Shown: one piece after another, positions 14,832-64,000 of the stretch
Position numbering within the stretch: position 1 is the first letter of the stretch
Layout of the letters: every line of letters begins with the position of its first letter
Source: Heliocidaris tuberculata
Lineage: Eukaryota > Echinodermata > Echinoidea > Camarodonta > Echinometridae
Length of the DNA: 64,000 nt
Assembly: GCA_025618425.1 (NCBI GenBank)
Contig: CM046836.1
Coordinates: 13,621,703-13,685,702, forward strand
Direction of reading: 5' to 3'
Made by a program: the position numbers and the translations under genes
Notes under the pieces: model-generated
What the model was told of the DNA's origin: nothing
The model's database searches: none
What the model saw: the letters and a program-made list of their open reading frames with translations, nothing else

Positions 14832-15277
14832 GTTACGTGAGTAACCGTAACGTGAGTAACCATTATTCCTGTGAAATCTGCAAAAATGATGGGTCCAGTA
14901 ATTTTCAGTTGTCACCCAGTGGAGGTCTTCCAAGCAAGGTTCTTTGAAAAGGGGTAAAATCATTTTTCAAGAAAGCCTCATATTCAAGTTAGCACACTTT
15001 CCATTTAACGCCTGTTTGCAATTTATGCATGTCCGAATTATGTAACGTGAGTAACCGATACATTAGTTGGGCTAGCAGTAATTACTGTTCCTGTTCTAAG
15101 GTTTTGGTTCTATAATACAGTAATTACTGTTCCTTTTCTAAGGTTTTGGTTCTATAATATAGGTACTCCAATAGGTAGGCAATGTATTAACTGAAACTGA
15201 TTTACCTAATACCTGTAATAAGAGAATAAGAGCTGAAGATGTAACCCAATACCTCTTCAACTGTAACGTGAGTAACC
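14832..15277. repeat. Cluster of four GTAACGTGAGTAACC motifs (family A)
   Basis: Copies at 14832-14846 (GTTAC variant), 14847-14861, 15042-15056 and 15263-15277, all in the same orientation. The first two are head to tail and the others lie about 180-210 bp apart in otherwise unique AT-rich DNA. The motif is itself a direct repeat, GTAAC-GTGA-GTAAC. See findings for its relation to clusters at 51.8 and 62.4 kb. Confidence 0.85.
15075..15160. repeat. Two-copy tandem duplication, about 42-bp unit
   Basis: CAGTAATTACTGTTCC followed by TTCTAAGGTTTTGGTTC occurs twice in direct tandem with one mismatch. It lies between the third and fourth family A motifs. Confidence 0.85.
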
Positions 15278-17874
15278 GTTGAATTACCCAGTGGCAGAAG
15301 TACAGGGCTGTACATATCAACACATACAAATCTTTTTTTTTTTTTTTCTCGAAATCACTCCTTGTAATTGTATAGTGAGAAAGCCAATAAATTATCCGAT
15401 GCGTCATGACTATGTTTACAATCTTCATAAACTAATGGTTAATCACACATATGACAATTCGTGCGAAAACTTTTCTGTGTTTTTTTTTCTTTTCTTTTCA
15501 CTTCATTTTTTTTTTTCTGTATCACCCACGGAATTTCATATCTATGTTCACTGAAGCGTGGTTAAAAACAAACGAATGCATGAATCATAATTTAATCAGA
15601 GTTCATCGTAAATCCCATTTTATTTACATCTTTAAAACTATACATTTATTAATTTCTTTGTTTGTGTGTTTATTTATTTGGTATGTTTATAAGCATATAA
15701 AGTTCAGGACTTCCAAGGAATAGGATTGATCTACAAACGATTAAGTACCGTAGACAAATGATGCCAAGATAGGAATGACTAAGAATATCCGTCAAGAAAA
15801 TATAACCATAATATGCAAATAAATATTTTCTTTTAAGGATATTATTTTCTTCCTGTAATGTACGTATATTATGGAAAGAACGTACAATAAGGTTTATATA
15901 TTGTAATTACAAGTAGAATACTTACAGATCTTGTTCGTATCTTCCAAGAGAGGGAAAGGCTTATCTTTCGAAAGTAGTTGAATCTTGTAAAGATCGATAA
16001 TGATGCCGCGTCCAAATTGAAGTTGACTCGTAGAATTGATCCTTACAAATTTAGGGTAAAGTATGTCAGCTCGGGAGCGCAACACGTCTCATTCATTACA
16101 TGGATGCGGATTTGGCATCTAATTCAGGCTCAGCTCGAGTTAGCTCTCCCCTTATCCTCCTCTCCATACACATTCCACAGAACTGCAGGTGTTTTTTAAT
16201 GTCAGATCGAGACATGGCAAGGCGGAGAAAAAATAACGATCAACGCCGTCTGCTAAGACCTCTCAAAACACACCTAAAAATCATTATGCGAATGAAATCA
16301 TTGTCTGCAAGTGTCGTCTACCCTTAGTTTTAATTCCACACACTCGCTGTGTCCCCCTCGGCAAGAGAGCCAGCTTGACATTACACACATATGCAGAGAG
16401 GCAGCAGACGGATAATATGCATGGAACTTTGAGCGCGGTGCAGTGGCGGAGCGCGGGAAACTGAATTCGAGGGATGCATAAAATTCTCACCGCAGCCACC
16501 GGCTATGAAAATGACACCTTTCTACCGTTCTTATACCCATTGGTACATGCAACGCTTCGATAAGGTTAGGCCTATACATAATTTAGTGTGTATTATAAGA
16601 GAACATAACATTCGCAGTTTGTGGTGTTACTTTAAGAAAAAACATAGAATGCTAGGCCTCATTTAAATTGGGAGGTACATGAATGGCGTGCACGCGGACA
16701 TTGGTTGGCCTGAAGTGTTAGTGGCGCCACTTCCCATAAGCCTTTACTATTTATAACCGAGAGTTCATTTGCAAGATTTGTAATATTGCAAGAACAAGGG
16801 GCAATTTTTTTTATTAACTTCAGCTGCCAGTAACCTTTTCATTGTATTGCATGTTTAAATTGATATCACACTGAGAGAAAACGTAATCATAAGGCATGAA
16901 TAGATTTTTTAAAAATATTATTTGAAAAGAAAATGCCCTAAGGTCATTGACTTACTGGATCTTCTTTCTAAGTTTGCCGGAAGATTTGTTTTCATTTATA
17001 CTCCCAATATCATTCCCTGTAATAACGATCTTCAGCTATATAAGATCAAGTAAAAGGGTAATACATATGACTGAAATATTCAAAGACATTTCAGGATTAT
17101 TTAAATGCCTGCAGTATTCATTCTACAAACTTTAACAAAGTTTTGTTAACAAAGAGTACATTAATTGATATTTGATGTAAACATGTATGTTGTATGTAAA
17201 CATATAGGCCTAGTTATAATTCTTTCCATTTTGAATTTTATGTATGAAAACAAAACTGGTGTTAATGAATAAAAAAATTCAAAAGTAATTTTTTATGAGA
17301 AATGATATATGAATGAGTTATGATACAGGTCTGAAGGTAGAGGTAGCGATTAGACATTTTATCGACATATTTGACATTCTGTCGACCCATTGAATGCTGT
17401 CTTCTGCAAATGTACTTCTTTTCACCTGAATTTGAGTCACGTTCTACCCCCCCCCCCCACTCCCTCCCCGAATAACTTGATGCTTCCCATTTGCATTCCA
17501 GTGTCTATATTGGCATATTGTATCTTAATATAAGCTGCATTGTAAATATATCATTTACGCCTTTCTGATGTGTGGATTGAAACTTGTCCTATGTCTTTAA
17601 AAAAATGGTCGTCGTAAATTGTATTATTTCAATTATACACTGTTTATAAAATGTTTCTGGAGTACCTGGATATCAGCCACAATATTATATTTATAAGCAA
17701 AGACTGACCAATGAATCGACAACACCTGAAACTGTTTTTAGGGGGAAATGTCCACCCCCTTAGTTTTACCCCCCTCGACATGCGGAGCTACGCCCTTTGG
17801 ATATTCACCTACGTCACATTGATGACAATGATAACACCTCAAGCAAACACACCAATATGGATTTTGTTTCAGCA

Positions 17875-17876
17875 AA

Positions 17877-17914
<38 letters not shown>
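17875..17914. repeat. (GA)n microsatellite
   Basis: Nearly pure GA tract with one AAAG interruption. Confidence 0.9.
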
Positions 17915-18504
17915 TTGGGTGATGAGTCATATCTAATGCAAACTCTGTTTTTATCGATATTATAACTATACATGGTGCACCAATGCGGAAATAAACAGCT
18001 GTCTCGGGTAACGAGATTAAACTTGAATTCATTGATGAATTGTTTGGGATACGACACGGATCAAATGGCACATGCATGCATAAAGGTGCTATTTCCAGCT
18101 CGAAACAAAAATATGTTCATTTTTCATATTCACAGTTTTTCCCATGGTGACTTTGCTCGATTAGATACATACTAGTTTATGATTGAACACATTATTTTTT
18201 TTAAATCACAAATTAGCTCAAGTTGAAAGTCTATGTTTTGCAAAACGCATGCTGTGTGAGCTTAATGATTTAACTGTAGGTATGTGATGTGAATATATGC
18301 AATTTAAAAAAAAAGTATAGAATGATAAGCAAGTGTATTTTCTTGTTACCCATCACTGTTTTGTTTATTGCATACTAGAGTAGAGAGAGAAAGAGAAAAG
18401 AGAGTAAAGAGAGAGAGAAACAGACAGAGAGTAACAGAAAGACCGATAGAATAGAGACAGATATAGAGAATGGTGTAAAAATAGTTTGAACTGCTTGCCG
18501 TTTA

Positions 18505-18506
<2 letters not shown>

Positions 18507-18535
<29 letters not shown>
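18507..18535. repeat. (TA)n microsatellite
   Basis: About 14 TA units. Confidence 0.9.
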
Positions 18536-18538
<3 letters not shown>

Positions 18539-19901
18539 AAATGGATAAAGAAGGAGGTTGAATTTAGAAATAAGGAAGGAAAAAAATAGAGAGTCCAGAA
18601 AAAAGAGGATTGAGAGGGAGGAGGTAAACAATATCGAAGAAGGTTTATTTTTTTAAAATCAGAATATGATACCAAATGTTTGATTCAGTAATTCATTCAT
18701 TAATCGATATGTTTCTTTCGTTTTGCCTTCCATCAATTTCACTAAGTTTCACACACCACATTGCATACCATACTGTTTTTGTCGAGGCACATTGTAATCT
18801 CGATAAGCTTATGCACGCTGTGTGGGCTGAGTCATTATATACGAACATGATTCTATGCCATTGTGATTACCCATGATAATCATATATAATGCATATCTGG
18901 TTACACAGTCGAACATTTCAATATTGACCCACGCCATTGTACTGCTTCAGGAATGCTCGCCATTATCTCTTTCACTTTTCTCTTCATACAGGTACGGGTT
19001 AAGATTTACTTGATATAATTTTTCTCTGATTATAAACACGATCACAAAGACTTGAAAAATCAACCCAAGGCAATTTCAATAACCTTCTGCGAAGATTACA
19101 GTGAACTCCGAACGTGAATTGTACTGGATATACAATTCAATTTCTCGAAAGTCTTTGCGATCGTGAATTAAAGAGCAAATTGTTACACATAGAATCAGTG
19201 GCTGATGTTGGTATATCGTCGTGGGTATCCTTATATCAGGGAATTCTATATCGTATACAGAGAACCCCAGAGAACAGTACACTTACTTAATCAAACAAAC
19301 TTTGTCCTTGGGAAGAATCAGTGTTCTTCTTTTCATTAATCACGAATATAAAACCTGATGTGAACGTGACCATGCCTGTATATTGAGCATACAATAAACG
19401 GCCATGTCACCTGTTTGATTCTGGGCTAGTACGACACCCGGCGACTAATGACATGTGCACGGTTAATATGGTTAGATATGCATCTCTGCCCTTCGCGCCC
19501 TGCATCCTTCTGCGCTCTGCTTATATCGTCTGCTGAAGCTCTCACTATCGACGATCCCCGACACCTTCCAAAGCGAGTTGCCACATGGGACAACATATTC
19601 AATTATAGATCAGATGAAGCTTCACTTTTATGTTTCTTTAGCGCATAAAACGGTGACACAAAGTCGGTTAATTGGATTGATTTATCAAGCAAGATCAATC
19701 AATTATTGAGCGCTAAACGTTTTAAGTTCTCAGTTACGTGGGTATATTCTGATCTCCTTATTGTCACTGACATGAATGCCAGACGGTCATATTAACCTCT
19801 GCAAATTACGCTGGTATGTTACATTCGATTTAATTTCATCTAATTTCGTCGTGGATATAAGCTCAGAGAACTCTAGATCGAGCTCCTGTTCATGTTTCAA
19901 A

Positions 19902-20079
19902 ATGGCGTCCACCCCATCGTCGTCTCGGGCTGCGGTTCGTGGGTTCGTGCTCGAGAGACGTCGTCTGCAAATGACCCTCTTCAAATTCGAGGATTTGGCG
20001 GGAATGGCTACCAAACTCTACTCACCTCAGGCACACATGATGTACCCGGGATGCAGTCCGGCGGCGGAGAAATCACCAG
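19902..20079 (+). CDS. DUF4440-like copy 2, exon 1
   Basis: Encodes residues 1-59, MASTPSSSRA through AAEKSP, plus one base. Reading frames shadowing this exon on both strands have no family resemblance. Confidence 0.77.
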
Positions 20080-22080: not shown

Positions 22081-22165
22081 CTGAAGCTAATATAATTTTT
22101 CTGAGCGTTTAATCAGTAATAGCTGCCATGAATGACCCTGACAGAAAGAACATAATAGTCGCAGG

Positions 22166-23110
22166 TATGGTCGTGTTAAAACAGTGTGGAAACGGTGCAA
22201 ACACAGTGTGAACACGGTGTTACCAAAGTGTGAACACCGTATTGAATAGTGTTAACATAATGTGAACACATTTATGAAAGTGTGAACACAATACAAACAC
22301 AGTCTTAGAAGATCGAACGTAAATATAGTATTATAGTATTAACACAGTCTGAACACAGTGTTAACAGTGTGGAAACAATGTGGACATAGTGTTACCATTG
22401 TGACAACCATGTGAACACAATATGCATACGGGTGCCAACACAGCATGAACACAAAAATAAATTAAACATTAAAGTAAACACAAAAACAAAATCAATAGTG
22501 TAAGCATAGCATCAACACAGTGTTAAAAGTGTGAACACAGTTTGACCACACGTTTAACACAATATCAGCAGTGTGGCCATAAAGTAAATACTGTTATGTC
22601 GAGACTGCCAACATTATGAAAGCGCTTTACTTCTCCTGTGTGATCACACTAAGGCGATTATACTCTTTGATTTTTCCCTATGAACAAAATGTGTAAACTG
22701 CCACAGAATGTTCACATTGTTTTCACAGAGAAAGTGATTCTATTATATTCTATGGTCGAATTGTGGTGTGCACAGGCCTACTCTGTGAGTATTCATATGA
22801 GTGTGTCACAGTGTGTATAAGGCAGTGTGGAAACAACGAGAACGCACTCTTTTCGCATAGAAATATGAAAGTGTTCAGAATTTGCTCCAAAGTCATTCGC
22901 ACAATTTTTAATTATCATGATTATCCCTGAGACCACTTTCCGTGTTTCACAATGGCAAAAACATCATGAGCACAAAATGTTTTCACATACATGACAGAAC
23001 CATGTAATTGAACCAAAGTTGCTTTAAGACAAACTGTGGTATGAACACTATGGCTATTTTTGTGGACACAGTGTCACAAAATATGGGAAGAGTGTGATCA
23101 CGGTGTTTTC
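22166..23110. repeat. Degenerate AACACAGTGTG-type repeat field
   Basis: Starting about 90 bases after the stop of the copy 2 gene, AACACAGTGT/GTGTGAACAC units recur every 10-20 bases. They are densest at 22170-22600 and thin out towards 23100. The unit can be read on both strands (ACACTGTGTT). Decayed short-period tandem repeat; no coding capacity. Confidence 0.75.

Positions 23111-23899: not shown

Positions 23900-23908
<9 letters not shown>

Positions 23909-23937
<29 letters not shown>
23909..23937. repeat. (CT)n microsatellite
   Basis: Poly-C run followed by a CT tract. Confidence 0.85.
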
Positions 23938-23940
<3 letters not shown>

Positions 23941-24581: not shown

Positions 24582-24612
<31 letters not shown>

Positions 24613-26237: not shown

Positions 26238-26260
26238 CCCCCCCCCCCCCCCCCCCCCCC
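26238..26260. repeat. Poly-C tract
   Basis: Uninterrupted run of about 23 C. Confidence 0.9.
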
Positions 26261-31341: not shown

Positions 31342-34300
31342 CTGTGGTAAAGCGGAGAGACAGAGAAGAGACTTGATCATCAAAAGTAACAAAAACATAA
31401 AACATAACAACAATATCACTAGGATTTTGCATAGTCCAATCAACATTAACAGCCCTACCCATTTTGGACACGCAGGCCAGTATCCAGTACTGACTGTTAT
31501 CCATGTTCCAACCCCTACGAGTAGATAGAGTTAGTTCACAAATTTATGGAGCGTCAAGTGTTAATCTCTTTATCATATGAAAATAACTATAATTCTGATA
31601 ATAAATGAGCACATAAAAAATCATGTCAATATGATTTCAATTTTTTTTCCAATTCTGCCTAGATTTATGTCATTTATTCAATTTGTCGTAAAGAGGTGTC
31701 ACTTGGTACTCTATGGCCTGAAATCACAAAAGTTTTATCTAACCCATGGTTTAAACCTCTACAAGCACAGTACGCTCATGTCCTCATGTCCAATGGGCAT
31801 ACAGTAATGCACTTATATACGCTTATTTTAGTCCACGGCGGAGGTTTATGCCATAGTTTAGACCATGGGTTAAGATAGGCCTCTTTCTTAAATTAGGGCC
31901 TATAAGTCAGAGGATTAAGTTAAACCGTGTTTTACTTGTGCTTGGTAGTCCAGGAGACCATAGTCATAGGACACATTTTTGGGGCAAAATATTTTCAACT
32001 TCTTTAGCAAAATGATTATTAATCATTGTGTAAAAGGATGAATTAGATTTCTTTTCATATAATCTGTTCGATAATTCCCTTTGTCACAGCCAGGATTATC
32101 TACAAATATTTTCTCTTTAAGTTTAAGAAGCATTTCACTTAGTGTTTGTTTGCACTTTTCATATTAACCCTTTCAGGACAGGAATTATTTAAGGGCTAAA
32201 TTGATCACATTTTGTTCTTTAAATTGGCAACAATAATATTTTTCTTTTAGCGCTACATGGTTCTAATAAGCTGTAATGTCTTTGAAAACAATACACATGG
32301 TCACAAATTTTGTCAAAAAGTTTTAAAAATTGCCAATTTTGTTTAAAAGCAATGATTTTGAACTTCTTAATGTGTTGCCAATTTGAGGAATTCAAAGCTT
32401 AATCTCATTTTTTAAATTCCTGGCATCAAACGCAATCTGATCATGCAACAAAAATGGACATAGAGTGGACAGAAAATTTTGCTCTTTCTACTCATGCATC
32501 TGGTATATTTTTTAGAGCTCTGAATCAAAAGTTATTGAGCCAAACCACAAAATGTGGTCAATTGTCGCGAAAGGGTTAACCATGTGCCACCTCATTTTGG
32601 GCATTACGTGATACCTTCAATATATATCTTTTTGAACCTCATGATAAATTTTACACACGATACTCACTAATAAATTCTTGTATTTTGGCCTGTACTTCTC
32701 ATCCTTCGTAAGACTATATTGACAACAACAAAAAAAGAGCAAGAGATAAACATTACATACTCATCATTCAATAGATGGTCATTCCATTCATTCTATCAGT
32801 TAATGAGCTCTTCATGAACAGGAATTATTTACTCATATATATGGTACGGGTCCACTCGCTATTCATAAGGACCGCTATTCATAGAAAACTGCTATTCATT
32901 TAACACGCATTATGAATAGCGGTCCTTATGAACGGAAGTCTTTATGAATAGCGAGGTAATTTGTCTATGGTTTGCTCGCTATGTAGAAGGACCGCTATTC
33001 ATACAAAACTGCTATTCATTTAGTCACGTGTTATGGATAGCGGTCCTTATGAATAGCAATCATTATGACTAGCGAGGTACAAACCCTGATACTGTTGACA
33101 ATGTACAAATCAAACTCACATAAAAGAACCATTCCAAATGCTGAAACTTTAATCTCACATGCACCACTAGTAAAAGCAGGTGTGTCACTAAAAGGGGGTG
33201 TGCGAGACACCCCCCTACCCCCCCCCCCCAAAAAAAAAATGTTTGTCTGCAATTTTTAAGAACTGACAACCTTTTCCCCCATTTTTTTGCTTGCTTGTTG
33301 AAAAATCTTTAGCCGTCTTGTCAGCAAAATGGATCAGACTTCCCCACCTGCCTCATTAAAAAATGGTCTAGAAACATCCCTGGTGGAATGTCCCAATTCT
33401 ATAACAAATTACAATTCAAAGGTTTACCTAAGAAAAATTGAAATACCTTTACACGGAAACACTTGTTTTTTTCAATACTGAATCGAACAGGGGAATCCCC
33501 CAAATAATACCAGCAAGATATCATTGTGCAAGACCCAATGTTTTTGCTGCTACATGACAAAGTATACAGGACGTGGTTTATAATGAATCAGAAAGTACTA
33601 AGGAGGGAAATTTAGGTACTATAAGGTTAACCTTTTCAAAAGCACAGGCAGGGAGTGTCAAAGTCATTTTGAAAGCAATATAGTAGAAAGAAATACCAAT
33701 TTTGATTAAGGCATGCTTCTGTCCTTGGTGGCTAACATTTTATTTTTTTAAAATAAGTATTCTCAACTGGGATGCCGAGAGATCAGGCATATGCTTGTAT
33801 ATTATCAAACAAGGGACCTACAGCTTGAAGTCCTATATCATGGACTATTTCTTTCCCATAGATTTTTTCAACCATTTGGATATGATCGGATATTGGTGCC
33901 TTCTCATAATATGAGTTAACCATTAGAACATGATTTCATTTTGATATAACACACATTTAGATTATACACTCCAGCCCAAGTTACCTCATGCTTTGTATTC
34001 AACAGGTCAATTAAACAGAATGTCGAGTTCTGGGAAAGGTGAACAATAATTTGTGAGCTTTCTCATTCCTTTCATGTCAGTTTGGAAGAATATCATATAG
34101 TAGAAATGTCTCCTGAAAAGGATTGCTCTTCTAATGCCCTCACATTCGGAATATGATGAGAAATAGCGGAAGTGTTCAGGTCGAACATTCATGCCACATG
34201 TGTCTACAGTCCCATATACCCATTTCTGATTGCAGTGCGTGTGCTTTTCAGCAAGAATGGGTCAATTTCTTATCATTTTAACGATTCCAAAACCTCACAG

Positions 34301-49300: not shown

Positions 49301-52300
49301 TCCCTTGAGCTGTCCTTACACACCTACATATAGGTCTGACTCTATGTACATGTACATTGGGTGCTTATCAGATAATTTACTATATGCAGATATAATGGGC
49401 TTAACAATTTATACTTGTCTATACATACAGACTGAGATAAGAAATTAACTTACAACTGTTCCCTTTCCTGGCTGGGACCATTGTTGAGGTCAGGCTGCAT
49501 CTCTACTAGGTTGGGTGTGCTGGTATGAATCTTCAACTTGAGAGAAAGACGTCCCCTTCCTGATTCACCTGTAAGCACACACACAAATAAAAAAAAAAAT
49601 CAGCATTAGTCATTAATATGATTTGCTTAAAATACAGTGAAATTCAGATACATGTACTGTATTCATTTAGGAAAGCCTCAAGGGCCCTTCACATAAAACA
49701 AGAATGACAGGAATGAATAAATGTCATAATATAAAAACTGACACATACATGTACAGGCCAACACATTGGGCGATTTTTATTCTTCATTTTTTTGTATTTT
49801 TTACCTATAGCCTAGCCTGTAGGGTAGACTGAGGAAACTGTGGCCCCCTTTTGCGGCGACTACTTTGATTGCTGCATTTATTGTGATATGGTGGAATATT
49901 TTACACCACAATGTAAAATATTCCACCATATCACTATTCAGCTATCCATCCCAAAGCAGAATTTTTTTTCATAACTACATTCATGAAGAAATATCAAGCA
50001 GGTCAAATTGGCATGGGGTCAGGGTAATTGTGGGATTTGTGGCCCCTATTGGTCATGAATAATTGATATCATAGATTTTGGGGAAACTTCTTACGGATAT
50101 CTATAATTACTAATGTCAGGTGTTACTGATACACTTAAAATGAACTATCATTGAATCAATAACTGGTTCAGCTAAATTGTTGAAATAAGCAATCATATCA
50201 TATACATATCGTGCATCTACAGTGTCATAAAATGTGGATACCCATCCAGTTTGCACTGACTTCCCTGGTTACAGCATCTACTTTTATCCCTCTGTACAAC
50301 CCTGCTAATGAAAATATTGGGGTGCAAGTTTTTCTACTGTGTTCCTCAATTCATACTCTTCCTATTTCAACCAAAAACTCATCTTAATGACACCACACCC
50401 CAAAATGCAAAGTAGACTTGCCACTTTCCAGCTAATGGAATTTGGATCAACATACGTTTTGAGCCCTCCTGTTCACAAACTTTGAGCAAAATGGCTGATT
50501 TTTCTGATTTGAAACAAGGAATAGTTCAGCAACACATGTACATGTACCAAACATATTTATCATTGAGTGATGCTACATACAGTATGTACAAAGAATTACA
50601 AGCTCTCAAAGAAAAAGGGGCCCAAATTATACAGTCTCCCCTACATGTACATGTACATGTACATTTACATTTACATTACATGTAGGCAAACCTAATTTTG
50701 AAAAAAGATTATAAAACACTCAACAAAGCAAAATGTTCGTAAATATTGCAGGCCTGGTGTAAGAAAAAGACTTGGCCTTTGTGTAATAAACTTTATGTAG
50801 GTCAACAGGTTTATGATGCTCAGTGCACTACAAAATAATACACGTACATGTACATGTACAGTATCTAATTTCCTTAATTCCAGATTACACTTTCTTTTTA
50901 AAGAAAATTCTCAAACATTTATCGATGAGAGTGAATCTTGGCATCACATTCATTATAAGCAAATTTAATCATGAAATTATAACCAGTGCTACACAAGGAG
51001 CAGATCTTTCCCGACCTTCCCAGGATCAGACTACATGTACAATGCACACAGTTCTTCTACCAGTAACAGCTACATGTACAGATAGACAGTGTCAACAAAC
51101 AGTGTATCAATTTACACTGCTAACATCAGCAGCTGCTGCCTACCTCCAGACTGAGACTACAAGGATGGCCATGACATTGGTGGCCTAATTATAACATATC
51201 TTTACAACACAAACTATGAAACGTTTTGCCTTCAAATGGCTACATGTACATGTACATGTACATGTATACCGTGATCTTGATACCTGAGTATCCATAAGCC
51301 TTGGCCTGCACTAGAAACATTGAAATACATGTACACCATTTAAAATATAGCCTAGGCCTGCGTGCCTACATGACTTGTAGCAATTATGTACATGTACATG
51401 TATGTACAGCTGTAGTATTCCATCTAGACTGTAGGGCCTACATGTACATGTATTCTGATGGCAATGAAATTGGCGGCCTAAATGTACATGTACATACTTG
51501 TATAACGTATCTTTACAACACAAACTGTGAATGACTGAAGTACCTGTGAAAGGGTACTGCATACATGTTATGTGAATAGGCCCTAGTCCTACAATATCTG
51601 CTGTCCAGTAGCCTTTACTTATGGGCCAAGTAATCACAATATAACGTGTTGTACATTATATTAAATCGTAATTCGATCTACTGCATACTTTCAATACATC
51701 ATAGTACAATTAAATAATATGCACTGCATTTGGATCTCTGCCCTGGGTAATTCCAGCGTGACAGACGGGACATCCAACCCTCACATTTTTATGTTTTTAC
51801 TTCATATTTCATATTTCATTTAAAAGTGATGCTTAATTTGATGCAGAGATGTGATCTATAGGGTTTGGTCAACAAAATGGGGGGAAATTTTATTTTTCAA
51901 GCCCCGCCCACAAATTGTGGGTGGGGCTTCAAGTTCAGCGTGACAGACGGGACATGAATTTACCAAGCCATTTCTGCTTCGATACTTTTCGACTAAGCTC
52001 TCCTCACTGGAAAATCTTGAAACAAAATATGTGTATTCATGTTATCAGTTGTTGGTACCTTTTTGAAACCTGCTAGTATACATTTGAAATTTCATCTTAC
52101 TTTTGGAGGAAAATGCCAAATAGTGAGCGTGACAGACGGGACAATAAAAACGTGACAGACGGGACACATTGAGATTGTACACAAAATAGAATTTTTAAAG
52201 ACAATCAAATTTCCAGCATTAAATACCTTATTCTCACGTTCTAAAGGGGTTAAAGGGTCATCTGTAATATCATGAAACATAATAGCAAAAGGATTTTAAT

Positions 52301-55300
52301 TTTCATCCATCGGAAAATTCTCATGTAGTCCCATCCATACATATTTTTGCTGTAGATGCCAAACGTGACAGACGGGACATTACTTTATGAATCATAATTA
52401 TCTTCATAAAATTAAAATTCTGCCAAGTTAGCAGTAGAAATGAATTTCCCCCCTACCAAAGAGCAAGACTGCAAAATTTTATTCAAAGACAATGGTCTAA
52501 TTTATTGTAAATGCAAAAAGTACCTTAAAAAACGTGACAGACGGGACAAAAATCCATTTGACCTTTGACCTCCATTAAATCAGAAGAATATTAATATTTT
52601 TAAATTTTTTTGTATATAAACATAAAATTCCCCTTAGTCCTAACTAGATTTGGTTGTCTTTATTATTATAACAGATGAAATTTCTAAAAATGACTCAATA
52701 TGTAATTAACCATATTTTACCATAAAAATGTGTGATTTCATTTTTGGGTTAAAAAATGGCCATTTTGGGTCAAAATATTCAAAATATTAAAAAACTGAAT
52801 ATTGTTCCATAAAGTTCAAATCATGCATATTCAAGTGACATAGAAGGAAAATGTTCAAAATAAAATTTGTTTTTTCACCAAAAGTGGACATTTTCATGGA
52901 AAAGGCTGTTAATTTCAAAGTTTATTTCCCAGATAATGAATCATTCAAAAGGCAAGGAAATTTTTTTAAATCCCTAAATTTTCACAAATTATCAAATTGG
53001 GCAATGGGTAACAGTGTGACGGCAATTCAAATACTGGAATGTCTTTCTCCCATATAGCGTGATATGTACATAAACATGACCTAGATTTATAGAAACCCAA
53101 GTAGAATTTAACAAAAGCTTTGCTTTGGTTTATTCTTACCTGTACATGTATGTATACATGTAGTCACTAAGTACATGTTCATGTACATGTACATGTAAAC
53201 ACAATCAATATACATACATGTACATCACTTGCCCACTTGCCCTGCATGTACTCTCCACATTGTATTTTATTTTTTACTACATGTATTTAAGCAACAGAAA
53301 TGAATAAAAACCACCATGATTCTTGATATGAAACATCATTTTCTCAGAGAGAGAAAGAACATCCGCATGCACTATTGAAGATGCAAGCTTCAAAATTTTT
53401 AGAGGAAATTACATATTATGCACATGTAGCATGAGATTCACAACAAATTGGACATACATTTACATATAACCATGATGAATCATGCAGTTCAGTTTATGGA
53501 TATGTACATGTACATGTATTGTATTTAAAAAATAAAAAAAAAAGTATCATTTCACAACCACAAGGTGTTCCCTTATGAGTTACCACAGAAAACCTCGTTT
53601 GAGTCAAATTGCCAAACCAAAAATAAAAATAGTGGATGTAGGCTAGATTAATGATGATATAATTTTCTCCCTTTTGCAAAACTGTATTATTTTGAAATCT
53701 CAAAACAAAGTCTTGTGCTATAAAGTGTACCTGCAGTAGTAAATTATTCTAGTAACTGATTTGCTTCACATAACAATTTGGTCACACCCTAATGGGCTAG
53801 TTATAGAAATATAGACAGCAGTGTAGTATGTCTAAGGGGAATTCCCTAGAGATGATTTACATCACATACAATATACATGTATCCTCTTGTTTTTAGACTG
53901 TTCACCTACACAATTTAGGGAAAGTTTGAGTACATGTTTACATGTAGAAACAGTATAAGGCCAGGTAAAATTGATTCCTAGTTTCTCATCGAGATTTTGC
54001 AAAAATAAGGAGGAGGGGTACCATGTTATTTGATATTTGATATCAAATGATGGCTGCCACACATAGAAATGCTATTAGGCATGGCTTCCCGTTATATTTA
54101 TATTTTTCTGGGGTCCCTTTAAACCCCTAAAAGGCTTCAAGATTCAATTTTACGGGTCTGCAGCAAAATTTTGGTGGTTTATCTTTTTCTTTAAAAAAAA
54201 ACACAAAAAATATCAAATACTGTAACCAAAAAAAAGGAGGCAGGCACAAAAAAGAATGCGGGCGGGGACAAGTAACTAGTAATAATTCTTATTTGGCCTA
54301 AGAATGATACACTCATAGAGGTACATGTACATGTATGCAAGAGTGCTTCCTGGAAATTTGGGTGTACAAGTACATTTTTCCTAGAGTTTTGAGAAAAGGG
54401 ACTGCAGAGCTATAATCACTACCGGTACTCACATTAGCCCACTTGTAGCCTACACATGTATGTACATTGATGGTAGGCCCCTACAGCGTACATACTGTAA
54501 ATAAAAGCAAATTGTAGTTGCAAGCCAACCCAATAATGTTGCTCACATATACAGTTGCTTTGATGCAGCTCTTTACATGTACATGTACATTGTATTTACC
54601 TGCAAGGGTACTAAAAATTTAATAAGACAAGTATCTGTGTCCAAAATATTATCAAACAGAGCATAAAAATGGGTTCTGTACAAAAAAATACTACAATGTT
54701 TAGGAATACAAAAATGAAAAATATTTAGGATTGTAGTTAGCCTTTCACAGTGTACATGTACATGTAATTGTAAAACTCTGAATTCCGGATTAAACTGATT
54801 TCAAATGTCTGAGTCGTTACAAAACATTTAATGCAGAAAAGGAGGCCATTATAAATTCCTTATGTTTTTTTGCATGTACATCGTACATGTACATGTACAT
54901 TGTACATGTAGCCTATTGAAGATAAAATGTGTTCATGTTCATGTATTCTACGTGTATTAAGCCAAGTAACATCACAATGAAAATTTCCATGTGCAATGGC
55001 AATGTTGCACACGTTCTACCAATGTCCTTAATTCTCGACTGGCATCCGTGATTCACAAAAACCATTGACCCCAATTTGTGACTCACTTTCCTGAATTTTG
55101 CCTGGAGAAGGTTGGAGTGCTCACGTTTCCATTTGCAATTCAACCTTTCCTGTGACAAAATGTGGTCATCTTGAACATGTCACTTGTTACAAAGGGTACA
55201 TGTACATGAAAACCTAGAGAACTATTAAACATGATGCATGTAATTTCCTAGTCAAATAGTGACATTTAAAAAGTACAGTAACCTATAAAAAAGGGTTCCC

Positions 55301-58300: not shown

Positions 58301-58727
58301 CACAAATACATATGATCATGACATGCTGCACTGCAAATCATGCAATGGAAGGGTCATCACTGACAAGCAACTAGAGAGTAAACATCTACATGTATGATCA
58401 AAGTCACTGAGACTCCACCATGTCCACTGCCAGTCACTGCGAGGGTCAGACTGTCAGTGACCGTCACTCAGGCACATCAACAGCAATAATGCCAATACAT
58501 TAATGTATTGTAGTACACCATGTAGACTGTCACTCATTGACGCTGACACAGATCTAAATTTTATCAGCGACAGATTGACCCATTTTTTATACACTGAAAA
58601 AGAGTCAATACAGAAGCCCTTATTTCAGTATTGCTTTAAAATTGCCTGTTGATAGAATAAAGTGCATGCATCAGGTTCTAAAGGGTATTCGTCACGATGA
58701 CTCACCTTCTCTATTTGCTAGCGCCAT
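31249..58727 (-). CDS. MAP2K4: Dual-specificity MAP kinase kinase 4 (MKK4/SEK1), complete coding region in 12 exons
   Basis: Cytosolic kinase that phosphorylates Thr and Tyr in the activation loops of JNK and p38. Coding exons (minus strand order): 58727-58706, 49568-49454, 48064-48004, 42618-42505, 39891-39772, 38521-38402, 37117-37066, 36612-36485, 35360-35283, 34551-34403, 32713-32668, 31341-31249. All introns are GT-AG and phases match; total 1098 nt, 365 residues. Visible landmarks: a basic-hydrophobic docking site (RGRLSLKLK, residues 12-20), GRGAFGSV P-loop, catalytic K104 in AVK, HRD 200-202, DFG 220-222, activating S230 and T234 in SIART, PER and SDVWSLGIT, and a C-terminal helix ([18 protein letters not shown]) like the DVD region bound by upstream MAP3Ks. 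The FYKFVHEV segment and SIART loop identify MKK4 rather than MKK7. The N-terminus is shorter than in human MKK4 (399 residues), and the usual HPF before the last helix is replaced by EYKF. Confidence 0.97.
32164..32579. mobile_element. piggyBac-like MITE, copy 1 (MAP2K4 intron 11)
   Basis: A 416-bp element bounded by TTAACCCTTTC and GAAAGGGTTAA. The TTAA target and CCCTTT ends are typical of piggyBac-derived elements. It is the reverse complement of the copy at 38998-39415, similar along its whole length. No ORF. Confidence 0.85.
32668..32713 (-). CDS. MAP2K4: MAP2K4 exon 11, alpha-H
   Basis: A 46-nt exon, acceptor caatatag, donor TTA|gtgagt. Encodes [15 protein letters not shown], matching the CLTKDxxxRPKYKELL block of MKK4. 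It is short and easily missed. Confidence 0.93.
32854..33078. repeat. Nested inverted and tandem repeat (CTCGCTATTCATAAGG family)
   Basis: Two related palindromic units of about 110 bp follow one another. Each has GGACCGCTATTCATA on the left, GAAAACTGCTATTCATTTA-like centres and ATAGCGGTCCTTATGAA on the right. Outer ends CTCGCTATTCAT and ATGACTAGCGAG also pair. Likely a duplicated foldback-type element, in MAP2K4 intron 10. Confidence 0.75.
34403..34551 (-). CDS. MAP2K4: MAP2K4 exon 10, alpha-G region
   Basis: Acceptor attatcag, donor AATG|gtgagc. Encodes [29 protein letters not shown] and EDFIVFVNK. Confidence 0.97.
34634..34683. repeat. Solo arm of the CTGTTTGGAGCC palindromic family
   Basis: Matches the reverse complement of the right half of the element at 2519-2595 (CTGTTTGGAGCCAGAAGGGC, then ACTCTATACAAATGAT). 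The second arm is missing. In MAP2K4 intron 9. Confidence 0.65.
35283..35360 (-). CDS. MAP2K4: MAP2K4 exon 9, P+1 region and alpha-F
   Basis: Acceptor ctttcag, donor ATG|gtatgt. Encodes [20 protein letters not shown] then SLGITM. Confidence 0.97.
35521..35610. repeat. (CAT)n-rich low-complexity patch
   Basis: CATCATCAGCATCATCGCC-type units in MAP2K4 intron 8. They give a Met-rich open frame on the minus strand that is not a gene. Confidence 0.85.
35631..35781. mobile_element. Palindromic MITE with GGGCCCTCTTGCATAAA ends
   Basis: About 150 bp; left end GGGCCCTCTTGCATAAAA, right end TTTTTATGCAAGAGGGCCC, inner arms with GCGATCAAACGCAACTC and its partner. The ends resemble, but are distinct from, the GGGCCCGTTGCATAAA family at 25458 and 55998. 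Confidence 0.8.
35900..35935. repeat. Perfect 15-bp hairpin with 6-nt loop
   Basis: GTGGCATGAAAAGAC, loop ggacag, then the exact complement. In MAP2K4 intron 8, about 120 bp from the MITE at 35631-35781. Confidence 0.7.
36485..36612 (-). CDS. MAP2K4: MAP2K4 exon 8, catalytic and activation loops
   Basis: Acceptor tttctag, donor GCT|gtaagt. Carries [25 protein letters not shown] and the phosphoacceptor loop SIARTMDAG, then PYMA. Confidence 0.97.
37066..37117 (-). CDS. MAP2K4: MAP2K4 exon 7, leads into the HRD motif
   Basis: Acceptor ttccacag, donor AGAG|gtaagt. Encodes [17 protein letters not shown]; the aspartate of HRD is split across the next junction. Confidence 0.95.
38402..38521 (-). 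CDS. MAP2K4: MAP2K4 exon 6, hinge and alpha-D/E
   Basis: Acceptor atacacag, donor GCA|gtaaga. Encodes [10 protein letters not shown] at the hinge, then [10 protein letters not shown] and IPENIMGKV, an MKK4-specific segment. A GA-rich microsatellite lies about 40 bases upstream in intron 5. Confidence 0.96.
38550..38732. repeat. (GA)n microsatellite in MAP2K4 intron 5
   Basis: Interrupted GAGA tract; on the transcribed strand it is a CT tract just upstream of the exon 6 acceptor, where it may add to the pyrimidine signal. Confidence 0.88.
38998..39415. mobile_element. piggyBac-like MITE, copy 2 (MAP2K4 intron 5)
   Basis: A 418-bp element starting TTAACCCTTTCGAGAC and ending CATGAAAGGGGTTGA; the right TTAA has decayed to TTGA. 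Inverted with respect to the copy at 32164-32579, with several insertions and deletions. Confidence 0.83.
39772..39891 (-). CDS. MAP2K4: MAP2K4 exon 5, alpha-C helix
   Basis: Acceptor ttggcag, donor GAG|gtaagt. Begins [20 protein letters not shown], nearly identical to vertebrate MKK4, and ends FFGALFKE. Confidence 0.97.
40692..40747. other. Imperfect stem-loop, possible structured or repeat-derived sequence
   Basis: GATAGAGT pairs with ACTCTATC, and within it CGAACCCC pairs with GGGGTTGG. The 200 bases to the right are less AT-rich than the intron around them. It does not fit a tRNA or other RNA gene I know. Confidence 0.3.
42505..42618 (-). CDS. MAP2K4: MAP2K4 exon 4, glycine-rich loop and catalytic lysine
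   Basis: Acceptor ttctgcag, donor AAG|gtacac. Encodes [26 protein letters not shown] and ends with MAVK, whose lysine (K104) anchors ATP phosphates. Confidence 0.96.
44440..44600. repeat. Possible retroelement 3' end
   Basis: TTCCTGAAGATGATCTGAAA followed by GGTTGAAAATTCGAAAC resembles the conserved CTGAAGATG...CGAAAC tail seen at the 3' ends of some Penelope-like and related retroelements. A similar CTGAAGATGAATATAC...ATGAAAAC string occurs at about 62764. No reverse transcriptase frame is present. Confidence 0.3.
45326..45347. repeat. (AC)n microsatellite
   Basis: Eleven AC units in MAP2K4 intron 3. Confidence 0.85.
47352..47736. mobile_element. Long foldback MITE (MAP2K4 intron 3)
   Basis: A 385-bp element that is almost entirely inverted repeat: outer ends GGCCGGAATTCACAAAGGTG and CACCTTTGTGAATTCTGGCC, inner arms CTATGGTTTAGACCACGGTT and its complement. 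The right arm holds a small tandem expansion (CGTTCATTATTGGAC twice). No ORF. Confidence 0.85.
48004..48064 (-). CDS. MAP2K4: MAP2K4 exon 3, pre-kinase linker
   Basis: Acceptor ttaacag, donor GAG|gtatgt. Encodes [17 protein letters not shown], close to the linker just before the kinase domain in vertebrate MKK4. Confidence 0.93.
49454..49568 (-). CDS. MAP2K4: MAP2K4 exon 2, JNK/p38 docking site
   Basis: Acceptor cttacag, donor AGTT|gtaagt. Encodes [19 protein letters not shown] and a polar linker; the Arg/Lys followed by Leu-x-Leu pattern is the D-motif of MKK4. Confidence 0.9.
49883..49934. repeat. Perfect 23-bp hairpin with 6-nt loop
   Basis: Arm GTGATATGGTGGAATATTTT plus ACA, loop ccacaa, then the exact complement. 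In MAP2K4 intron 1, about 315 bases upstream of exon 2. The perfect pairing suggests recent origin or constraint. Confidence 0.75.
51757..52548. repeat. Cluster of six CGTGACAGACGGGACA motifs (family B)
   Basis: Six identical 16-mers, all on the plus strand, at 51757-51772, 51939-51954, 52128-52143, 52151-52166, 52364-52379 and 52533-52548. Spacings are irregular (23 to about 210 bp) and the intervening AT-rich DNA is not itself repeated. The motif contains GTGAC-AGAC-GGGAC. A near-perfect 31-bp palindrome (51899-51929, AAGCCCCGCCCACAA arm) lies just before the second copy. In MAP2K4 intron 1. Confidence 0.93.
55998..56157. mobile_element. Palindromic MITE with GGGCCCGTTGCATAAA end, copy 2
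   Basis: Same family and orientation as 25458-25620 with scattered substitutions (for example CTATTAACAGTAAC for CCATTAACGGTAAC). In MAP2K4 intron 1. Confidence 0.82.
58061..58240. mobile_element. Palindromic MITE-like element
   Basis: About 180 bp. Left arm GGCAAACCCGGAGAATAGGG, CCAGACGCGCGTGCTGTATT, ACACGTGTCTCTTGATGG; right arm CACAGTATTGAACACAGTAC, GTGTCTGGTCCTCTATTCTC, CAGTTTGCC. Near the 5' end of MAP2K4 intron 1. Confidence 0.65.
58706..58727 (-). CDS. MAP2K4: MAP2K4 coding exon 1
   Basis: ATG at 58725-58727 in strong context (aactATGG) begins MALANRE plus one base; donor GAAG|gtgagt. Only seven residues precede the 9.1-kb first intron. Confidence 0.8.
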
Positions 58728-58945
58728 AGTTTCATCGGTGGTAGAACTTTCAGTGCGATGGAATCTCTTGCTGTGTTCTCGCAATTACTCATCGGCTGCG
58801 CGACAACACACACACGGACAGGCACCCGCTCTGATGTTCTCGAATCCCCGCCGAGATTCAATCCTGGTTTCGTGCAACTTGTCGTGCAATAACTCGGTAA
58901 ATCAAGCGAAAACTACGACGATTCCTCGTTTCCGGGCTGAATAAA
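58728..58945 (-). promoter_or_regulatory. MAP2K4: MAP2K4 5' UTR and CpG-rich promoter region
   Basis: Immediately upstream of the MAP2K4 start codon the sequence becomes CpG-rich and less AT-rich, then reverts near 58945. No TATA box is evident. A five-codon upstream ORF (58735-58718, minus) overlaps the main ATG in another frame; its own ATG has weak context. The transcription start cannot be fixed from sequence. A plus-strand open frame of 100 codons over this stretch is a shadow. Confidence 0.5.
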
Positions 58946-59589
58946 TAATATTTTCCAAGTGCAAATTTGTATTTCACCTATATAGCAGCAAAATCCATTA
59001 ATATCAACAAAACATAGGAAAATAATGATGCCATCCGAACATTTTCGTGACGACAATCAAACAGAAAATATTTGAAGAGGGCGCTCTTGAAATTTCACAC
59101 ACCCTGTACTGTATAACGCATGTACCGGTAGAGATTTTTATTCTGATTTTTGCCTTTTTCCTCATGATTATTTCTCAATTTCCTATTATACGCACCACAT
59201 TAATCATTCTCCACCTTTTCCTCTTCGTCTCATATACCGCACATTGTTTATTATTGGACCATTTCGCTACCCGCAGAGGGGACGGCTGCCCAAACTAATC
59301 TTTCAAAAATTAATATAGCTAACCATGTATGCATCTCTGCCCTTTATAGACTATAAAAATAAAAAATAATAAAACCCTGTAAAACACTTGAAATGGAAGC
59401 TAAATTTATTTTTTAAATGAGAAATTAAGAGAGAATGGGGATCTTAAGGGAGTTATAATGGCTTTAAATCATCCACAGTAAATTACAGCAAAAAAACAAC
59501 AAACAAACAAACGTAAAAGACCTTGATCTGAACCGTTACCAGTTTAATATGGGTTTGTAAATCAAAAGCTTGGAAAATTATAGGGCTAC

Positions 59590-59758
59590 CGGTGGCGGAT
59601 CCACTTTTTCTTTCTTTCTTTTTTTTTTTTTTTTTTTTTTTGCTTGTCAGAGATTTTTTGAGTTAAAAAGGGGCCCAAAAATGCTGAGGACATTTTTTTT
59701 TTGGGGGGGGGGGTGAATATTGAGCCCCCTCCCTCAAGAAATCCTGGATCCGCCACTG
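59590..59758. mobile_element. hAT-like MITE with 8-bp target duplication
   Basis: A 169-bp element with ends CGGTGGCGGATCC and GGATCCGCCACTG, flanked by agggctac (59582-59589) and acggctac (59759-59766), an 8-bp duplication with one mismatch. Poly-T and poly-G interior, no ORF. Target length and CAGTGGCGG-type end indicate hAT. Confidence 0.85.
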
Positions 59759-60011
59759 ACGGCTACCCCTACTTTTAAGCAAACGTTAGCACCCATGACA
59801 TCTGAGGATCGCAGTAGAAAAGTTGGTGACAGGAGAAACAACTGAATGATAATATACCCATACGGGTGTTGGACATCATAACTGTGTATATCGAGGTGTA
59901 TATAGAGAGACTATATATTAGACGTTCAATTGAAAGGCTCCAGTGGATCACCTCGTCCAGGGCCACCCCACCCATACTGCAAAAACACGAAAAATGGTGA
60001 ATAGAATCTGA

Positions 60012-60013
<2 letters not shown>

Positions 60014-60048
<35 letters not shown>
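60014..60048. repeat. (GA)n microsatellite
   Basis: About 17 GA units followed by a poly-G run. Confidence 0.9.
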
Positions 60049-60055
<7 letters not shown>

Positions 60056-60357
60056 AGGGGGGGTAAGGAAAAAGGTTTGAAAAAATGACACGCAGCTCAC
60101 TACAACTTTGCTTTTAGACACGCGCTGGAAACATTTTTTTTTTGCATGCTTGCCCCCCCCCCCCTCCCCAATTTTTTTAAGGGGGGGGGGTCGGTCCAAC
60201 ATGTCTTTGGAGCCTCGCCAAAAAAAATGATTTTGGATAAAATGTAGATCTACTACTTAACCCCCGCATGCTTTACTATAGTGAACAGTGGAGATGATGT
60301 AGGCCTAAATAGGAAATAGATATACAAGCTTGCCGCTGAGCGAATTACAGAGGCTCT

Positions 60358-60562
60358 ACCAACTCTAAAAACTAAAGTGTTAAATCACCATTCAAAAGGG
60401 CCGAGGAGTGACAACTTTTTCAAAATTGTAGATAAAAACTTTTAACATGCTGGATACAACACTATAAAGGCTAAATCCAGCAGTTTAAAAGAGTTAATCT
60501 ACCATTTTGAAAAAGTTGTCATTCCTCGGCCCATTTAAATGGTGAGTTAACACTAGAGTGTA
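60358..60562. mobile_element. Palindromic TA-target MITE, copy 2
   Basis: Same family as 9740-9940: CTCTAAAAACTAAAGTGTTA on the left, AAATGGTGAGTTAACACTAG on the right, paired AACTTTTTCAAAATTGTAG-type inner arms and CCTCGGCCC. The terminal bases have diverged. Confidence 0.75.
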
Positions 60563-60675
60563 CCCTACCCTCCCCTTACCACCCCTTACCTCATTCAGGG
60601 GTGCTGTCAGAGGGCCTGTAACATAAAGCGATAAATCAATCTTACGATTGATATCAATCGTAAAGCAGGGTTCCC

Positions 60676-61830
60676 ACTTAGCCGAGTTATAGTGGCGAGT
60701 TATGGAGAGTTGTGGCGAGTTGCCTCAAGGAGGCACTCGCGATAACTCGCGTAAAGCTCTTCAAGTGACCAGCAAATGAGCTGACATGTGTGTTTGCTTC
60801 GGAAAATATGACAATTTGTGTGAAGTGACCGTGGGCGTGTCTTCAACCACGGTACATACCAATCAGCGGTGAGGAATAGCTGAACTCTATCTGACCTCCA
60901 GCTCTACATACATCCCGGTGTATGTTGATTGCAAGCTGTGTGTTGGTCAGTGGTCAGTGGCAGTGCCATAGTGTATACTGCGTGTAATACACACACACAC
61001 ACACACACACTGACCTTATGTCAGAGGTGTCACTCAGAAATGTCAGCAGCCAAAGTGCAAATCCTTTCCAGCCGTTGGGTATAACTGAAAATAATGTGAT
61101 ATACACTTCAAACGGTTTATTATGATAAGACAACCTGCAAAGAGCCTATAGGGGTTAGAATGGGGCGGGGAGTGCCGTTTTTGCTCACATTTCTAGCGAC
61201 CAGCCGTTTTTTAATCAGTTCAGTAGCTGTACTGTACATGCGTAGGCTTGTATCATGATCCTGAGACTTGTACAACGTCTATGAATGTGGTATCGGGGAA
61301 GGTCGCTTAACTTTCGGCAGTTCGGGCAGTTCGGTCAACTTCGTATGATCTAATTTTATGGCCTTCAGTCCGATGCAAACACACATGGGATCCCAATTTC
61401 TAGTCCCTTTCATGTAACTCGGGATAACTCGCAACAACTCGGCACGGCTCGGCGTAACTCGTTGGAACTCTGCACAACTCTCCTTGAAGTCGCAAGCAGT
61501 TCCAAAATTTTTGAACATGTTCAAAATTTTCACTAACTCGTTGTCACTCGTGCTGAACTCGTTTAAACTCGTAGTATACTCGCAATACTCGCAACATACT
61601 CGCATTACTCGTAAGAAGCTCGAGATGCACTCTTCATAACTCGCCACCTTCAAGTATACCCGAGTGCTATTCGAGTTTCCAAGAGTGGGATACGAGCACT
61701 ACGATTGTGTTACGAGTCAGGCGGAGTTGCCCACGAGATTAGCGCGAGTTTAGATCGAGCACGGCGACTTACAGCGAGTTTAGATCGAGCAAGGCGACTT
61801 ACAGCGAGCTTCGTATGAGCTTATTCAGAG
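60676..61830. repeat. Foldback-like field of degenerate CGAGTT / AACTCG repeats
   Basis: Short repeats change strand twice: CGAGTT units at 60680-60725, AACTCG units densely at about 61417-61645, then CGAGT units at about 61660-61830. The edges TTCCCACTTAGCC (60672) and its rough complement CCAAGAGTGGGATA (about 61679) oppose each other. The right part contains a perfect-looking two-copy 30-bp repeat at 61744-61803. The 124-codon minus-strand frame at 61279-61653 is a product of this array. Inverted repeats built from short tandem repeats recall sea urchin TU foldback elements, but this is only resemblance. Confidence 0.55.
60988..61010. repeat. (AC)n microsatellite
   Basis: About eleven AC units within the CGAGTT field interval. 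Confidence 0.88.
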
Positions 61831-62027
61831 TGCATTGCAAGCGCACCATTATATGTCAGCTGGCCTATAACTATGCAGCGATTTACATTTTCCCAAAAGT
61901 ATTTTCAAGATAGAACACATTTATTCAACCCTAAACGCACGTGTACACAGAAAAATAGGCCATCGCCATTCCATTTCCACAACTACCAACAAACAAGGCA
62001 AGAAAAATGCCACGGCTCAAGAAATCC

Positions 62028-62093
62028 AAGAGTGGTGGACATTGCGATAATGGACATTGCTGTAGTGGACATTGCGGTAGTGGGCCATTCTTT
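62028..62093. repeat. Short tandem repeat, about 18-bp unit
   Basis: Four units of the form GTAGTGGACATTGCGGTA with substitutions (GTGGACATTGCGATAATGG and so on); the last unit is decayed to GTGGGCCATTC. Confidence 0.8.
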
Positions 62094-62409
62094 GTAAAGT
62101 GAAACTTTTTTTTGACAAAAAAGAAGTTAATTCTTGCTGTTTTAGAATAGTATATTCTTGAAGAGTAATGTGTAAAGTTAAATGGATCATATTTTTTTCA
62201 TTAACTGAAGACCCAATTATGCTAATTTTCATACAATTACATTGGCATAAGTTAAAGTTTGTTTTTTTAAATCCCCTTTTCACCATATAATAGTCATCTC
62301 GCAGTATGAGCTTTAATAGTTGTCACTATATAGTGAAATGATACCCTTCCTAGGTCCTTTGCAAGCAATTAAGTTGAAGGAAAAGGGAAATTTGTCTATG
62401 CATTCTAAT

Positions 62410-63665
62410 GTCACTCACGTGACTCCAAAACATGAAAAGTTTATGCTATTTGAAAAATACAATTTGGATAATCTATATTTTCCTGTCATAAGCTAACTTG
62501 TATATGTCCTCCATCTCACCAAATATTATTCCAAGTATGATTCTCGTTCTTTAAATATCGCCCAACTAACTTTGTCACACACGTGACCTGAGTGCAAAGG
62601 GTCAAGTGCATATGTACTGGGCAAGTCATTTGTACAGTCTGTTTCATCTATATTATTGTTGAGTTTCTTGACCTATTAATTCTGTTTTCACTTTTTGTAT
62701 TCCTCTTGTTTAATCCTCTGAATTGATTGCGTAACCCTATACAATTAAGTTTAGAAAACAAGCTGAAGATGAATATACTTGTATATCAGCATGAAAACTT
62801 TTGATTTGTTTACTTTGATTCTTTGGTCTGAACATTAATGATAATGGTAATAGAAGATATTAATGATAATTATATATAATAATGATAATAATTACAATAA
62901 CAATAATAAGAAGAATTAATAATAATAATAATAATCATATGTCTTGTTTACCCAGGGTAGCCTCATCAATACTAAATATTGCTCATCTTAAGGGCCCTAC
63001 AAGCATATTATTACCCTGGTTTTAGCACGACAACCGTAGCGCTCAGTGCATTCAAGAAATAAATCCTACAGGTACTCACTTTACACCTGGATCGAGCATG
63101 GCAAATGCAGATAAAATGTCTTGCCAAAGGACGTTAGAGCAATGGCAATTAAATTGAACTCCATACCTTGTGATCTGCAGTAGGGTTACACGGTTACTTA
63201 TCTACTAGAGCAAAACACCTCCACGGTATCTCAATAAATATATCAATAAATGATATCCATAAATGTATAAAAATGAAAAAGAAAATAAATTGTGTGTTCC
63301 CTGTGTATTTTTCATAAAGAAAAGATCTGAGAATCACTTTCTACCGTATTGATGATAATTCATATAGAGCTCATGCAAAATGAATTAAAAATACTAAATA
63401 TTATGATTTTTTCAATAGTTCACCAAATCTGTACACATTACCTATGGTATATCACACACGTGACCATACATCATGATACAAAATATTACATAACAAAAAT
63501 TTTATGCAACTTCGAACAAAATTAATGCTATTTTCTAAGAAATAGTACCATGAAATATAACTACCATTAATATGAACATTGAAGCTTCTGAAAATTCAGA
63601 GAGATTTAAAGATAAAATGTAAGTTTCAAAAACCTGCTTCTGTGCGAGGTCACGCACATGACCTG
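62410..63665. repeat. Cluster of four GTCACACACGTGACC motifs (family C)
   Basis: Copies at 62410-62426 (GTCACTCACGTGACT), 62574-62588 (GTCACACACGTGACC), 63451-63465 (ATCACACACGTGACC) and 63649-63663 (GTCACGCACATGACC), same orientation, irregularly spaced in AT-rich DNA. Three contain the E-box CACGTG. The layout GTCAC-N4-GTGAC parallels families A and B. Confidence 0.7.
62945..63235. repeat. Probable dispersed repeat (SINE-like appearance)
   Basis: Contains CACTTTACACCTGGATCGAG, GTCTTGCCAAAGGACGTTAG and a GTGATCTGCAGTAGGGTT block, which together recall common dispersed invertebrate repeats. It has no coding capacity. I recognise the wording but cannot verify the family. Confidence 0.4.
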
Positions 63666-63995: not shown

Positions 63996-64000
63996 CTTTA

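Follow-up and report, generated by a model that had tools for sequence, protein, structure and literature searches.

The window analysed here, a 64,000-bp stretch of the Heliocidaris tuberculata genome (G000:C5:13621703-13685702), contains three clusters of an iterated 14-bp site, designated A, B and C, each of which lies within a transposon copy (Table 1). The three transposon families have defined ends, numerous copies elsewhere in the genome, target-site duplications at other loci and their own spelling and spacing of the site, which we regard as a candidate recognition site of the corresponding transposase. The initial annotation had described every cluster as almost invariant and restricted to one strand. 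That description is accurate for A, with a single mismatch in one of four copies, and for the six identical copies of B. In cluster C the positions and the single strand were borne out but the near-invariance was not, as one copy is exact and four are degenerate, including a fifth copy at 63836 that had been overlooked. A scan of the window for 12-mers present at least four times within 2 kb recovered A and B, together with an inverted cluster at 32867-33037, and missed C because its copies are too divergent.

Table 1. Transposons, terminal inverted repeats (TIRs) and 14-bp sites of the window
Feature	Positions	Strand	Remarks
Family A long element	14416..15289	+	874 bp in window; ends GGGCAATTCCAC / GTTGAATTACCC; from BLAST and alignment with other copies
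A left TIR head	14416..14427	+	GGGCAATTCCAC
A site 1	14832..14845	+	doublet partner, 1 mismatch
A site 2	14847..14860	+	
A site 3	15042..15055	+	
A site 4	15263..15276	+	13 bp from right end
A right TIR	15278..15289	-	GGGTAATTCAAC on - strand; diverged from consensus
Family B element	51745..52901	+	aligned with L049, L050, L051 to 52901; same site spacings elsewhere in genome
B left TIR head	51745..51755	+	GGGTAATTCCA
B site 1	51758..51771	+	13 bp from left end
B site 2	51940..51953	+	
B site 3	52129..52142	+	doublet
B site 4	52152..52165	+	doublet
B site 5	52365..52378	+	
B site 6	52534..52547	+	
Larger transposon carrying C	60666..64000	+	TIR CAGGGTTCCCACTTAGCC...; right end ~330 bp past window, in L072 (~64330)
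Family C long element	62082..63861	+	nested in larger transposon; inverted ends 62082-62095 / 63848-63861
C site 1	62410..62423	+	1 mismatch
C site 2	62574..62587	+	exact
C site 3	63451..63464	+	1 mismatch
C site 4	63649..63662	+	2 mismatches
C site 5	63836..63849	+	2 mismatches, 12 bp from right end; exact in L073, L077

The genome (897 Mb in 69 contigs) was searched with the exact 14-mers, reversed-letter 14-mers serving as controls; counts are given as plus strand and minus strand. Site A was found 202+165 = 367 times (control, 0+1), site B 905+906 = 1811 times (control, 1+1) and site C 966+981 = 1947 times (control, 6+9), so that the clustered spellings are far above the control in all three families. 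On the strand that aligns best, the sites read GTTACTCACGTTAC (A), GTGACAGACGGGAC (B) and GTCACACACGTGAC (C); with A flipped, 9 of the 14 columns are identical, a value that none of 200,000 letter shuffles reached. The frame proposed earlier, GTNAC-N4-GKNAC, is therefore better given as GTNACNNACGKNAC, since A shares more columns with B and C in the flipped orientation (nine versus seven). This aligned form, which was picked after the data had been seen, occurs 12 times in the window, whereas 20 Markov sequences contain it 0.0 times on average.

The ends of the three families are related. Their heads, GGGCAATTCCAC in A, GGGYAATTCCA in B and GGGCCATTCT in C, share the TIR form GGGYMATTCY, and the exact TIRs are 12 bp (A), 11 bp (B), 10 bp (the short form of C) and 11 bp (the long form of C) in length, or 14, 12, 11 and 14 bp, respectively, when one mismatch is allowed. 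Target-site duplications were sought in 60 candidate left/right end pairs, which include wrong pairings within a locus, with the expectation derived from pairs between loci. Exact 4-bp duplications were present in 18 of the 60 pairs (10 in A, 4 in B and 4 in C) versus 1.48 expected. Shorter repeats were found in 7 pairs for a length of 2 bp (6.32 expected) and in 3 pairs for 3 bp (1.37 expected); among the longer ones, there were none of 5, 6 or 8 bp and one of 7 bp (L021). The 4-bp duplications are AT-rich, with A as the first base in 13/18 and T as the last base in 15/18, and match AWWT in 8/18 and ANNT in 12/18. The initial annotation had asked for common boundaries flanked by target duplications, and both were found.

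Other superfamilies differ from this pattern. Elements of the hAT type produce 8-bp duplications, those of PIF/Harbinger 3-bp duplications, and those of CACTA/EnSpm 2- to 3-bp duplications together with CAC ends. A, B and C depart from hAT in the lack of any 8-bp duplication among the 60 end pairs, from PIF/Harbinger in the 3-bp matches, which stand by themselves in 3 of the 60 pairs (1.37 expected), and from CACTA/EnSpm in the GGG ends and the 4-bp duplication; they depart from piggyBac and Kolobok in that not one of the 18 duplications reads TTAA.

In every family, the distance between one of the sites and an end of the element is 12-13 bp. The combination of TIR and site in this fixed register, GGGYMATTCYNNNGTNACNNACGKNAC, was detected at 175+193 places in the genome, and the TIR with an oppositely oriented site, as at the right end of C, at 167+164 places, with 0 and 0 in the controls in both cases. 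Among the matches listed with letters, the spellings are those of A, B and C or close to them. One further spelling, GTTACAGACGTTAC, which occurred next to a TIR a single time, was rejected as a fourth family, with 3 occurrences in the genome versus 12 and 8 in the controls. Thus, the earlier suggestion of transposon-family sites in cluster-specific versions is upheld by related GGGYMATTCY ends, 4-bp duplications and a family-specific site both beside one end and through the body of the element. The term subterminal applies to the site next to an end; the others run through the element body.

Within an element, the sites all face one direction in the long form of A, in B and in C. Among the matches listed, neighbouring sites within 2 kb of each other are on the same strand in 72 cases and on opposite strands in none for B, 55 and none for C, and 24 and 6 for A, the six opposite-strand neighbours fitting a palindromic form of family A. 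The spacing had been called irregular but is quasi-regular, at about 186 bp with tight doublets. With doublets omitted, the intervals are 188 and 178 bp in long A elements, 182, 189, 213 and 169 bp in B, 186, 198 and 185 bp in the short form of C and 164, 877, 198 and 187 bp in its long form; excluding the 877-bp interval, the mean is 186 bp with a standard deviation of 12.5. Twelve of the 13 intervals (12 of 15 when the A and B doublets are counted) fall within 160-215 bp, a range chosen after the data had been seen, whereas the highest number reached in any of 20,000 random placements was 7. Among the matches listed, same-strand neighbours more than 50 bp and at most 2 kb apart lie at 160-220 bp in 16/23 cases for A, 53/62 for B and 29/50 for C, although these are copies of a few masters and are not independent. 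Tight doublets measure 15 bp in long A elements, 23 bp in B and 21-34 bp at some C places.

Spacers compared between families align at chance level (2 of 41 comparisons at p<0.05 and none at 0.01). Inside an element, spacer pairs rise above shuffles in 1 of 10 cases in B, 1 of 3 in the short form of C and 0 of 1 in A, while the sites are identical. Hence, the description of the spacers as unrepeated is correct in that they are mostly unrelated within an element, but they recur throughout the genome as element parts; they had also been called unconserved, which is not true between element copies, where spacers are as conserved as sites. With only 2 of 14 within-element pairs aligning above shuffles, a minisatellite whose head-to-tail unit includes the spacer was ruled out.

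Family A comprises a long form and a form of about 260-460 bp, the latter matching itself in either orientation. The 20 A loci compared each match others among the BLAST matches listed. The consensus of 14 long copies is 800 bp in length with sites at 393, 408, 596 and 774, and the 31-mer of its left end was found at 88 genome places at no more than 2 mismatches, with 0 in the controls. The window copy carries no open reading frame (ORF) of 150 or more amino acids. In family B, three loci and the window copy represent one element of about 1160 bp with pairwise identities of 88.0-97.3%, although in the window copy the final bases of the right end have been lost or changed. On contig C1, 25 left and 23 right ends among the matches listed form at least 18 pairs, of which 15 are 1120-1175 bp and three are 2002-2095 bp in length.

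Family C also has two forms, a short one of 594-624 bp (L073 and L074) and a long one of about 1.8 kb, represented by the window copy and by L077, which is 83% identical to it and has an insert of about 1.2 kb. The 24-mer of the left end occurs at 191+205 genome places and the right end with its site at 128+139, with 0 in the controls for each. On contig C1, 40 left and 35 right ends among the matches listed give at least 15 pairs of 238 to 9529 bp. The outer flanks of the window copy are common to all 10 other copies fetched, so it was probably inserted once into an ancestral larger transposon and then carried along with it. Positions 62082 and 63861 are nevertheless accepted as true element ends because the same ends recur in L073, L074 and L077 in other flanks with 4-bp duplications. 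On contig C2, match positions place three C-type elements with the left head GGGTAATTCTGAAG and C sites about 70 kb apart (46031498-46033028, 46099775-46103320 and 46169728-46171258), one of them about 2 kb longer.

The larger transposon that carries C (60666-64000 plus L072:1-330) is a high-copy element with the TIR CAGGGTTCCCACTTAGCCGAGTT and 50-bp arms that are 82% alike. Among 40 scored candidates, 25 in addition to the window copy span 61409-64000 at 96-99% identity. Dense ACTCG/CGAGT repeats, often about 10 bp apart, are found near both ends and are absent from the nested C element; its CAG start makes this transposon look hAT-like. A 639-bp stretch of the window copy (60770-61408) is absent from other copies among the matches listed, and in many of these the matches on its two sides have about 10 bases in common, as a target duplication would produce.

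Both A and C have near-identical counterparts on the same contig about 339 kb lower, at C5:13297819-13298244 for the A sites and C5:13344546 for the C copy (99%), and 60000-60769 matches C5:13343109 at 98%. These counterparts of approximately 14416-64000 probably reflect a large duplication. The remaining features of the window include a 131-bp palindrome (82%) at 60400-60530 that starts with GCCGAGGAGTGACAACTTTTTC; inverted and direct repeats around AAGGACCGCTATTCATA at 32862-33060, forming two similar hairpin-like halves; degenerate minisatellite-like GGGGTAGTTATATTGGAAGGTAGTTTTCCAG repeats with a 46-bp step at 13800-14340; and dense degenerate GTGTGAACACAGTGTTAAC-like repeats at 22160-22590, where AAAGTGTGAACAC occurs three times. 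An ORF of 301 amino acids on the minus strand (5097-6002) has no Pfam match and contains KRVSF in its end portion; because this resembles a PP1-docking motif, the ORF is perhaps a host gene.

In CACTA/EnSpm and hAT elements, short transposase sites are iterated subterminally, near both ends. The families described here resemble these in carrying short sites iterated within a transposon, but differ in that the sites occupy one strand, run through the whole element and recur at a quasi-regular interval. For the Sola2-type elements of Dictyostelium, the parts of the sources consulted give TIRs of 12 or 13 bp and a 4-bp target duplication AWWT (PMC3627910, PMC10741241). The three families likewise combine short TIRs (10-12 bp exact) with AT-rich 4-bp duplications, whereas those parts mention no site iterated at about 186 bp. 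Like miniature inverted-repeat transposable elements (MITEs), A, B and C are AT-rich, have many copies and short TIRs and contain no clear transposase ORF, and the 260-460-bp form of A matches itself in both orientations. However, B and the long form of C exceed the size of under 800 bp given for MITEs in the part of the source consulted (PMC5199201), and all three families carry an ordered one-strand site array.

Judged by sequence, the clusters are fairly likely to be site arrays of three apparently non-autonomous cut-and-paste transposon families of one Sola2-like group, with the sites as candidate transposase recognition sites. Each 14-bp site, in which a GTNAC and a GKNAC half-site flank NNAC with a period of 9 bp, would be recognized by the transposase of its own family, as suggested by the fusion of one site to the TIR. 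The copy located 12-13 bp from one end would position the enzyme for cleavage, and the additional one-strand copies, about one per 186 bp, may load extra enzyme along the element. The single direction of the array hints at the loading of further protomers, and the interval of about 186 bp at adaptation to nucleosomes; it is speculation that such spacing leaves one site exposed in each linker. Columns 3, 6, 7, 11 and 12, which vary between families, may set specificity, each family answering to its own source element.

Several observations weigh against this reading. In the 14 long A copies, site conservation is 0.929-0.949 versus 0.931 for the whole element, no higher even though these loci were chosen by an exact site. 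Dead copies descended from a few masters should behave in this way, and constraint is indicated by sites being identical inside an element rather than from one copy to another. In the window copies, no 4-bp duplication is intact (AAGT/AGTG in A, the right end lost in B, and C nested). With respect to the end beside it, the site of C is not oriented as in the other two families, which counts against strict homology of the terminal site. The autonomous relatives for which the initial annotation had advised a search were not found: neither the ORFs near A copies nor the long C pairs yielded a transposase or an autonomous copy. The ten ORFs near A copies comprise RVT_1, zf-C2H2, two Exo_endo_phos matches, one MULE match under the curated cut-off and five without a family. 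The long C pairs were inspected as one of two 3.0-kb pairs in whole (L077) and one piece each of a 6.0-kb (L078) and a 9.5-kb pair (L079); by eye, with no family search, L077 and L079 show reverse-transcriptase-like frames and L078 a proline-rich frame, all taken as nested insertions. No Sola2 transposase ORF was seen in the sequences looked at, which was not a homology search and used no Sola2 reference protein, so TIRs and target-site duplications are the sole grounds for filing the families with Sola2.

Residual spacer homology in one of three pairs in the short form of C and one of ten in B is a further point of this kind, as it leaves room for an origin by duplication. The arrays could be relics of a tandemly duplicated unit some 186 bp long in an ancestral element, with drifted spacers and a site retained either through constraint or through chance of age. 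The regular interval agrees with this, and for part of C past tandem duplication is possible, but in the single A pair and in 9 of 10 B pairs homology does not exceed that of shuffles although the sites are identical, and drift by itself would not leave the same 14 bp intact in every unit. As a complete explanation this appears distinctly improbable; it is compatible with transposase recognition and can be its origin. Rather less far-fetched, though still unlikely, is binding by a host factor such as a repressor, activator or insulator protein, either for expression or as targets of silencing. Sites throughout the element body, not just near the ends, and a nucleosome-length interval would suit a chromatin factor, whereas a single factor leaves unexplained why the spelling varies by transposon family in one genome, and each of the three families keeps one site in a fixed register to its TIR. 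The alternative offered in the initial annotation, operator-like arrays for zinc-finger or receptor-type factors, found nothing in its favour. Remnants of an ordinary minisatellite, or chance matches that lack a shared layout, would account for a short motif iterated locally, but given the genome counts relative to the controls, the fixed ends with target duplications and the same layout at many places, we give this explanation almost no weight.

The unusual part of these transposons is the nucleosome-length, one-strand site array. Searches of an open-access library, sequence strings included, yielded nothing on such arrays among the papers listed, and the elements may be catalogued in Repbase. 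We put forward, as a tentative and rather unlikely extension of transposase recognition, that the gene-less members may be chromatin-matched docking arrays, in which much of the element carries a direction-sensitive transposase site for every nucleosome length, with a private spelling for each family. If so, the array would have been selected because it captures transposase in chromatin, and from the spellings one could read how transposase and DNA have co-evolved. More generally, if the sites bind transposase, three families with similar ends and different spellings in one genome would constitute a natural series for reading the divergence of transposase specificity and the ties that bind copies without genes to their own source. 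The even nucleosome-length spacing, in the face of spacers that share no detectable homology between families, would offer a testable link of transposon anatomy to chromatin.

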